From Adineta ricciae (taxonomy: Eukaryota; Rotifera; Eurotatoria; Adinetida; Adinetidae), in assembly GCA_905250025.1 (NCBI GenBank), contig CAJNOJ010000023.1, forward strand, positions 62,001 through 126,000: a DNA stretch of 64,000 nucleotides, read 5' to 3'. Below are positions 59,440 through 63,234 of this stretch, piece by piece. The notes under the pieces were generated by a model. It ran no database searches and was not told the origin of the DNA. It saw only the letters and a program-made list of their open reading frames with translations. The position numbers were made by a program, and so were the translations under genes. Position 1 is the first letter of the stretch. Each line of letters opens with the position of its first letter.

Positions 59440-61659
59440 ATGCCACAAGCGGTTTTAGTGAAAGCACAATACTTAATCTTATTTAGTTTTTTGTTAACAT
59501 TTTTTGTTATAACAAATGCCTTCTACACCAAAAGGCAATTTTATCCATCAGTTGTCTATTTAACCAAATCGAACACAAGTCTTGCTGTGAGCACCACGCT
59601 TTCGTTCATTTCGACTTCAATAAATGAGTATTTCTCGTTTAGGTACTGTATGTGCAAGCATTTGTCTTTGTTGTTCTTTTTGGAAAACTTGCTCAACGAA
59701 TATTTCTTGGACAACTGCGTGCTATTGAGGCTGAGGTTAGTGAGAAAGGCTAGTTTCAATCTGTATTGAATTCGCTTGTTTCTTTTCAAGCATTTATACG
59801 ACCGTGTATGGTTTTCAGTCACAGAAACATGTTTAGCGTTTACTGTATTTCGAGAGGAATTCAGTTCACACTTTGTGGCATTATTTGCAGTTTTACTCTT
59901 TCTCAAATGTTTTCATTGGTTAGCAGAAGATCGTGTGGATTATGTAAGTCAATGTTCATGTTCTTTCCATGAAAAGAAAGTCAAGTTTTATGTAGATGGA
60001 ACAAAGTCCTGTGCTGGGTGCGATATTTCATGCGAGAATTATCGGTAAGACCAGATATGTGGAAACTGTGATCGTCACAAAATTGGTTTGATACTTCCTA
60101 GGTCTTCTTAGTACATTATTTGTCTTTGATTATCTATTTTTGTCATCGGCATATACGTACACATTAGCAAAAGGTGCTTCTGTCCAGATCGTTTTTGGTT
60201 TTGAGGTATGAAACAGAGAAAAGCGAAGAATTTAGTTGTTTATTGACATGTCGATCTTCTTCTAGTACGCTATTCTAATGGTATCGGTTATAGCTACTGG
60301 AATTAAATATATCCTTCATTTCATTGAAATTCGTGCCGGTGAGCAGTGGGAAAACAAAGGAGTCTGTATGCTCTACTCCGATTTAATTCTCGGATTCATT
60401 CGGCTTACATTGTACATGCTGTTTATCATCGTTATGATGAGAATTCATACATTTCCATTGTTTGCTATTCGACCAATGTTTATGGCCATGAGGTAATTTG
60501 GATTTCGTAAAAGTACGATATTGATAATGTCGATGATATAGAGCGTTTCGAAAATCTTGTACTGATGTTCTGGAATCGCGACGTGCTATTCAAAATTTGA
60601 ATACTATGTATCCAGATTTAACAGCTGACGAACTTGCCAATGTTGCCGATACAACGTGTATTATCTGCCGGGAAGACATGCAAGTACAACAAAGTATCAA
60701 ACGCTTAGCTTGTCAACATATATTTCATAAAAATTGTTTACGTTCATGGTTCCAACGTCAGCAGACTTGTATGTATCATCCATAGAACTTTTCTTTTGAA
60801 TCTTGGATATATTCCGTCATAGGTCCTATCTGTCGTACAACTGTATTACGAGCACCAAATCCTCCTCGAGCTGCTGCAAATAATGCTCAACCTGCCGCAG
60901 CAGCGGCAGCGGCAGCACCGCCACCAGCTGCAAATACTCCACCGTCACCACCACCGTCCTCATCTTCCTCTGCTACTTCGGCTTCGCCGCCAAGAAATGC
61001 GACAACTGCTCAAACAACATTTTCAACTGCCACTGCAACTGGTGGCACTGGAGTATTTTCACAAATGCCAATAGGTTCCTTTCCTATGGTATTACCACCT
61101 TTCGGTATAACATACTCTGTAAATGGACAAGATCTTTTAAATTCATGTGTGTTTGAACATTTAGCTTTTCCTCCTCCGCCTTTACCGCCTGCAAATTTTA
61201 CTGGTATGTCTGAAGAAAATATTCGCGCTATGGAAGGGGCAGAACTATCTCACGTTCAAGCACGTATACAATGCTTACGTAACGTTAGAACACTACTAGA
61301 TGCATCAATGATACAAATGCAACAGTACATGAATATTGTCTTAACACAAAGGTTCGTTTATTTCGTACGATCGTCTACTATTTCATACAACTCTATCTGT
61401 ATTTCTTAATAGTAATATGGAAAATAGTAATCGTTTGTTACAGAATCTTGGCTCTGATCTTGATCAAGTATTTCCATTATCTGACAGATCAAATATGACT
61501 ACCAATGGTAGAGTCTTTGTTATTGTTCATATCAATAATTCGAATGTATATTTAGATGTGAATGTAAACGATCCTGATATGCTACGTCGCCGACGGTTAA
61601 ATCACTATGGACATCGATTATCACCAACGAGTGTTGATCAAAATGATAAGCAGAGTTAA
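59440..61659 (+). CDS. SYVN1: SYVN1/HRD1 (synoviolin), ER-associated degradation E3 ligase
   Basis: The membrane RING E3 ligase at the core of ER-associated degradation. It starts at 59440 (MPQAVLVKAQYLILFSFLLT), with about nine exons. Membrane part: FYTKRQFYPSVVYLTKSNTS, VLYVQAFVFVVLFGKLAQRI, FLGQLRAIEAEHLYDRVWFS, VTETCLAFTVFREEFSSHFV, LLFLKCFHWLAEDRVDYMEQ, IVFGFEYAILMVSVIATGIK, then HTFPLFAIRPMFMAMRAFRK. The RING-H2 finger (CIICREDMQ, RLACQHIFHKNCLRSWFQRQ, QTCPICR) is completed across an intron near 60769-60824. A Pro/Ala/Ser-rich segment follows, then a conserved C-terminal helix (NFTGMSEENIRAMEGAELSH, LRNVRTLLDASMIQMQQYMN). Order and spacing match animal SYVN1 throughout. Confidence 0.96.
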
Positions 61660-61899: not shown

Positions 61900-63234
61900 T
61901 CAGAAGTCTTGTTCATATGCTTCGAATGGCTGCAGTGCGAATTGTACAATTGATTCGAGTATCCATTCTGGACCGAGAAAATGAACACCGTTGGAGCGAG
62001 ATAGTTCAAACAATTGTTGCTCATTTGAAGATTGAAATCGAAATAAATCAGTACAGAGCACAATCGTCAACATTGAACTCTCGATCGATGAAGTCAAAGG
62101 AAATGTATTCAGGATAGAACCGTGACATAATTGTATCAATGACGCTAGTTCAACTTTCGACTAAAACAAAAAATTGAAATTTTAATTGAAAAGCTATTCA
62201 CTTTGAATTACCATTTTATCTTGACAACCATCGCATAGAAGAAAGAATTGACAATTGTGGAATAATTTCATTTGTTTTGCTAAGCGACTCTTTCGCATAC
62301 CATCGTGATATTCTCCGAAAGGAATGTCACCGCGAATTTCATACTTCATTTCATTCAGAATCTGATTGTGTTGCAAACATTCGTTAATCCATTGATAACT
62401 CATGATGAATAAATGACGAGCAATTGCTTGAAATAGTTTCATCGTTAGTGGACACAAAAGTGGTTGTTCTTCATTTCCGATGATTAAATGTGTTGTACAA
62501 TTGTCAACTTGTTCGCATAATGCCACTTGATCCGAATGATTCATAGCAAAACGTTGAAGATTTGTCTGAAATGCATCGGAATTTCTGTTAGAGTACTATC
62601 TTTCTAAGTTGTTTTCACTTACAATTTGTTCGCTATTGAGACAAGAATATGCAATACAGATACGTTTATCGTTCGAATGTGTTGAATCACTTGTTTCATC
62701 TTCAGATGAGAACGATAAATCAAGAATCTTCTTCAATTCGTGTAGATCGTCTTTTTCGTTCTTCTTTTGTCGCTTTCCATTTATTTTCACTGGTAATTTG
62801 TGTTCTTTACGCATTTTCACACGAGCATTTGTAAACCAGATGGTGATTTGCGCCGAAGTCATTTTCGTTTTGGTCATCAGCATTTGTTTTTCACTCTCTG
62901 TCGGATCTGAAAATACTCATATGAGCGAGAAACGATAGGAAACAGAATACTTACATGGATGATCCTGATGTTCGTACAACCATTGTTTCAATGGACCAGT
63001 AGAATTTCGTTCGCGACCGGTTGTACTGAACAATGTTGATAATTTGCTATTTTCCGTATCCATCATTGACTCGATCGACACTACAGGACTGTTGAGATAC
63101 TGTACTGCTGTTACCGTATTCAGCTGATCAGTCGTTTCGCAGGATTGTTGACTGAGTATGTCCATTAATGAAGACCCAGCTGACGCTATTGCGATACTGA
63201 TCAATGAATTATTCGACGCAACTTCCGATGGCAT
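61900..63234 (-). CDS. TALE homeodomain-tandem BRCT fusion protein
   Basis: A 392-residue protein from four exons (63234-62955, 62906-62623, 62565-62212, 62160-61900), all frame-consistent. Residues about 73-131 form a TALE-class homeodomain: GPLKQWLYEHQDHP, then the PYP three-residue loop, then ITIWFTNARVKMRKEHK as the recognition helix. The sequence is closest to Iroquois/Mohawk types, with Thr at position 50. A basic stretch and an acidic Ser-rich linker follow. Residues about 174-262 form BRCT 1 (RICIAYSCLNSEQ, VDNCTTHLIIGN, FIMSYQWINECLQHN) and about 282-380 BRCT 2 (LFHNCQFFLLCDG, GVHFLGPEWILESIVQFAL). The linker (KYEIRGDIPFGEYHDG, RKSRLAKQ) is BRCA1/BARD1-like. Phosphopeptide-binding Ser (YSCL) and Lys (TMKLF) equivalents are kept. 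No RING is present. Predicted to bind DNA and phosphoproteins in the nucleus. Confidence 0.85.

Follow-up and report, generated by a model that had tools for sequence, protein, structure and literature searches.

The window, a stretch of 64,000 nucleotides from Adineta ricciae (positions 62001-126000 of contig CAJNOJ010000023.1, here C23, in an assembly of 130 Mb), carries on its minus strand a gene of four exons. Their spliced frame remains open for 392 codons and encodes a TALE homeodomain followed by a tandem BRCT pair. The product is identical over its full length to P0001, an unnamed A. ricciae protein at NCBI, and the same four exons were picked by a simple gene finder made for this analysis. 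The three introns, of 48, 57 and 51 nt, all run from GT to AG, and the exons and introns lie where an earlier note on this DNA had first placed them. The features of the gene are as follows.

62955..63234, minus strand: exon 1, residues 1-93 plus one base, coding the N-terminus, the homeodomain arm and helix 1; its spliced frame is that of P0001
62623..62906, minus strand: exon 2, coding the homeodomain PYP loop, helices 2 and 3, a variable linker and the first strand of BRCT 1
62212..62565, minus strand: exon 3, coding the remainder of BRCT 1, the inter-BRCT linker and the start of BRCT 2
61900..62160, minus strand: exon 4, coding the remainder of BRCT 2, with the stop codon at 61902-61900
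62803..63009, minus strand: TALE homeodomain, about residues 76-128, split by intron 1 (62954-62907), placed by Homeobox_KN and predicted helices
62326..62673, minus strand: BRCT 1, about residues 172-268, split by intron 2 (62622-62566), with S181, T229 and K231 in the phosphate pocket and F233 in the +3 pocket
61912..62268, minus strand: BRCT 2, residues 288-389, split by intron 3 (62211-62161), with M306 and L374 in the +3 pocket

The N-terminus encoded by exon 1 is predicted at low confidence and is probably disordered. P0001 is assigned to two contigs in the protein set. On the plus strand at 60786-61659 lie two open frames (60786-61409 and 61345-61659), perhaps a single gene, arranged tail-to-tail with the fusion gene about 240 bases from its stop codon.

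The reading of both domain types in one spliced frame was borne out by Pfam matches above the cut-offs. In the homeodomain half, Homeobox_KN (PF05920) matches residues 85-123 with an E value of 2.8e-17 and 62.7 bits against a cut-off of 24, and the general Homeodomain family (PF00046) scores 35.5 bits against 22.9. Helices are predicted at residues 80-88, 97-107 and 111-128, of which helix 1 (80-88) is short. The span from Leu82 in helix 1 to Trp117 in helix 3 covers 35 residues, compared to 32 in ordinary homeodomains, and this difference is the three-residue TALE extension between helices 1 and 2. In standard homeodomain numbering, W48, F49, N51 and R53 are kept in all 12 short proteins compared. 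Helix 3 of the window protein has Thr50, Val54 and Lys55; position 55 is Gln in some Rotaria short copies and Ile in the long form described below. As the TALE Arg55 is lost, the sequence specificity of the domain is only putative.

Over a 50-residue core, the homeodomain shares 56% identity with an IRX-like copy of A. ricciae on contig C282, 54% with human IRX, 48% with human MKX and 38% with TGIF-like copies. In a tree of 50 columns, built with only six own-genome cores and with human reference cores, short and long copies group together (96/86), and this clade is joined with IRX at 90/89. In this small tree of few columns, the nearest kin by sequence is Iroquois, from which the fusion protein differs in its tandem BRCT tail and in Thr50, Val54 and Lys55 of helix 3.

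The BRCT half contains two stretches matched by the Pfam BRCT family, the best at residues 172-252 (E 4.6e-17), and a BRCT_2 match whose best stretch is residues 288-389 (E 2.7e-12), both above the curated cut-offs. The earlier note had called the pair BRCA1/BARD1-type. Only the first half of this name is retained: the family profile gave 7.4e-31 for BRCA1 versus 1.5e-6 for BARD1, and BRCA1 is the best match by both sequence and predicted fold, which makes the pair BRCA1-type. Compared to BARD1, which has a RING, ankyrin repeats and a tandem BRCT, the fusion protein lacks RING and ankyrin and gives that far weaker match. Its BRCT pair is alike in type to the C-terminal pair of BRCA1, a reader of phosphoserine-x-x-Phe, whereas the protein as a whole is short and carries a homeodomain instead of a RING.

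Six of the nine pocket positions examined are the same as in human BRCA1 (S1655, T1700, K1702, F1704, M1775 and L1839). The key Ser and Lys of the phosphate pocket are thus kept, as first proposed; the other three positions differ (G1656 to C, R1699 to L and R1835 to P). Judging by the titles of PDB entries, the substitutions G1656D, R1699Q and R1835P have been examined for their effect on phosphopeptide recognition. Rat BRCA1, too, departs from the human residue at 1835. Comparison of six short copies showed Thr at 1655 in Didymodactylos and Ile at 1839 in two of the six; in the long copies, T1655, S1700 and I1704 (BRCA1 numbering) are seen. Residues W117, F118, N120, R122, T229, K231, F233, M306 and W372 are invariant in all 13 aligned short proteins.

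The absence of a RING from the fusion protein, as first noticed, was confirmed by Pfam, in which neither a RING nor an ankyrin family matched; none of 17 family proteins or models carried a RING either, a set in which P0018 and one model are alleles, three members come from Didymodactylos and two are cut after the BRCT pair. No BRCA1 or BARD1 with a RING turned up when the assembly was searched with the human RING and BRCT sequences and with two RING profiles. The human BRCA1 BRCT query gave 22 matches at E ≤ 1, of which 19 are fusion-family places and three (on C149, C236 and C32, 3.6e-5 to 0.03) are known as matches rather than as gene models; it missed the family places at C133:190k, C133:192k and C23:48k. 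The human BARD1 BRCT query found nothing better than E 0.005. By script, no RING match came closer than 20 kb to any BRCT place, the nearest pair being 23.7 kb apart, when 125 of 128 RING rows were set against 44 BRCT places (the three omitted are repeat places). Among the 150 of 392 RING candidates that were scored, only C3:71516 was seen by eye near a BRCT place, whose strand it shares and from which it lies about 9.5 kb downstream. Such a search may miss a RING that is diverged, split or unscored, and the N-termini of models may be incomplete. Altogether, these results suggest that the assembly has no standard BRCA1-BARD1 pair. Against this stand two A. vaga genes that, in the part of PMC12220480 available, are labelled BRCA1 (FUN_025314) and BARD1 (FUN_018514).

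The earlier note had counted a lack of the fusion in other rotifers as a point that would refute it; this did not occur, since copies were found in nine named bdelloids. Against a set of 5.77 billion proteins, the first search listed 17 at E ≤ 1e-3, and precomputed domains place Homeobox_KN and BRCT together in 15 of them; of the exceptions, P0015 is a piece with BRCT alone and P0017 a protein with the homeodomain alone. Its named sources are A. ricciae, A. vaga, A. steineri, Rotaria sordida, R. sp. Silwood1, R. sp. Silwood2 and Didymodactylos carnosus. A search with the longer type (19 proteins at E ≤ 1e-3) added R. magnacalcarata, and a profile search (21 at E ≤ 1e-9) added R. socialis. The sole species-named match outside bdelloids is a plant homeodomain protein without BRCT (3.2e-5); since the protein search requires shared five-letter words, the absence of the fusion outside bdelloids is unproven. 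No paper on a homeodomain-BRCT fusion in bdelloids or rotifers was found in a body of literature that took in few subscription papers and, for some, the title or start of the abstract.

These copies bear directly on whether two adjacent genes were mistakenly joined, for which we found no supporting point. Exon 2 (62906-62623) codes homeodomain helices 2-3 together with the first BRCT strand, as the earlier note had pointed out, and the same fusion occurs in several species and in paralogs. In addition, the environmental proteins P0005 and P0012 are continuous fusions on contigs 1426 and 1348 bases long, which leave 226 and 130 bases of non-coding room, while the matching gene of A. ricciae has five introns that add up to 262-263 bases. 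With too little room for such introns, these contigs probably derive from spliced RNA, although for P0005 the shortfall is slight and the intron lengths are taken from A. ricciae. A mistaken join is therefore hardly credible: nine named bdelloids have the fusion, as do two short ohnologs and the longer zinc-repeat paralogs, which confirms that it is a real single bdelloid protein.

Comparison of the window gene against its short paralog (short B) by a simple Nei-Gojobori count gave a dN/dS of 0.15 for the homeodomain and 0.20 for the BRCTs, a rough ratio given a dS of 1.2; the values are 0.07 between short-B alleles and 0.28 between long alleles. By this measure on sequences, both halves are under purifying selection. 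This equal constraint, together with the four residues kept in every short protein, speaks against a relic homeodomain that would do no more than bring the protein into the nucleus or touch DNA unspecifically, leaving the work to the phosphopeptide-binding tail. The substitutions at positions 54 and 55 and the short helix 1 would fit such a relic, which we consider improbable.

In A. ricciae the family comprises short and long forms. The window gene at 61900-63234 (short A) was found as a single copy, whereas short B (C201 and C133) and the long form (C77 and C8) are allelic pairs. Contig C3 carries a related long gene. The long paralogs, which combine Cys/His repeats with a homeodomain and a BRCT pair, lie at the following places.

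C8:201000-206000: L032
C77:361000-366000: L031
C3:57000-64000: L033

The long proteins, mostly of about 730-840 residues, were found in eight named bdelloids, and each of the 11 checked has three CX4C..CX2H-like matches; in Pfam scans of five of these long forms, proteins or models, Zf_WRKY19 gave a match under its cut-off in three and none in the other two. The model on C3 ended before the BRCT exons, and P0024, from another A. ricciae contig, is a near copy of this gene in which homeodomain and BRCTs are annotated together. P0024 is annotated as a single protein of 1091 residues in which the first BRCT pair is followed by another, diverged one, and the corresponding stretches on C3 (58.8-63.3 kb) were modelled apart and incompletely; it is either an annotation join or a real four-BRCT protein.

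The architecture, conservation, purifying selection, predicted fold and most pocket residues, all observed for the fusion protein, point to a DNA-bound phosphopeptide reader, likeliest for phosphorylation-gated control of transcription, a reading to which we give roughly even odds (about 0.5). We propose that the Iroquois-like TALE homeodomain would set the protein on DNA, from which the C-terminal BRCA1-type pair may bind a phosphoserine partner and bring it there, and that the output would be transcription control gated by phosphorylation. An artificial protein that joins the DNA-binding domain of GAL4 to the BRCA1 BRCT pair switches on transcription, as PMC3078593 states and makes use of. 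Like the fusion protein, this activator combines a DNA-binding domain with a BRCA1-type BRCT pair; it is a laboratory construct, whereas the bdelloid protein, its putative counterpart, is natural. Because this artificial activator works, and because several paralogs bear other putative DNA-binding zinc repeats, a role in transcription is at least as likely as one in damage. Points against a reader of phosphopeptide and DNA are the C, L and P at 1656, 1699 and 1835, the variation at other pocket positions among the short and long copies, the lost Arg55 and the short helix 1.

The earlier note had instead proposed a factor that ties a DNA sequence to phospho-dependent damage signalling, an interpretation that is partly supported. 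As the main rival, though a rather unlikely one, the BRCTs would read ATM/ATR-type phosphosites at breaks and the homeodomain would keep repair at, or steer it to, chosen DNA. Bdelloids survive many DNA breaks, the BRCT pair is BRCA1-type, and RING-bearing BRCA1 or BARD1 was not found within the limits of the search, all of which count for it, as does the report of A. vaga without p53 in the part of PMC10809525 available. However, BRCT, BRCA1 and homeobox are absent as terms from the main text of that paper as available, and we infer that sequence-specific binding would not bring a protein to random breaks. In the accessible main text of the bdelloid DNA-repair paper PMC6264785, BARD1 and homeodomain are likewise absent as terms, its BRCA passages name BRCA2 and its BRCT passages concern polymerase lambda.

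If the reading as a transcription regulator is true, nature built the kind of protein made in laboratories as evidence that transcription can be driven by the BRCA1 tail, and bdelloids would offer a living-animal test of direct gene control by BRCT phosphopeptide reading. The fusion protein may let them link phosphorylation signals to chosen DNA sites, and whether their stress tolerance rests partly on a rewired BRCA1 module would become testable. So is the question of how breaks are repaired in an animal without a recognisable BRCA1-BARD1 ubiquitin ligase.

A genome search with the fusion protein gave 22 BRCT places, with a homeodomain in the same model in five and adjacent in a sixth (C3). 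It is conceivable, if on balance doubtful, that bdelloids dropped the RING-based BRCA1-BARD1 and expanded the BRCT module into a RING-less family of about 20 loci, several with DNA-binding fusions (homeodomain, CX4C..CX2H zinc repeats), as a new class for phosphorylation-gated transcription or repair targeting. The BRCT-pair models L039/L040 (C9:127.9k and C23:580k), L046 (C133:192k) and L047 (C23:48k) lack a homeodomain but carry between one and three Cys/His repeats of similar form, and are putative further DNA-binding BRCT proteins. Inspection by eye shows a shared Cys motif, C-x-D-[VL]-[ST]-x-C-x-C-V, ahead of the BRCTs in the long BRCT-pair models L036/L037, L041/L042 and L043/L044; in the three of these that were scanned, Pfam matched nothing there. 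C23 and C133 each have a BRCT gene with repeats of this Cys/His kind (at 48 kb and 192 kb) and a homeodomain gene (at 124 kb and 260 kb), with order and strand alike on the two contigs, as expected for ohnologous blocks.
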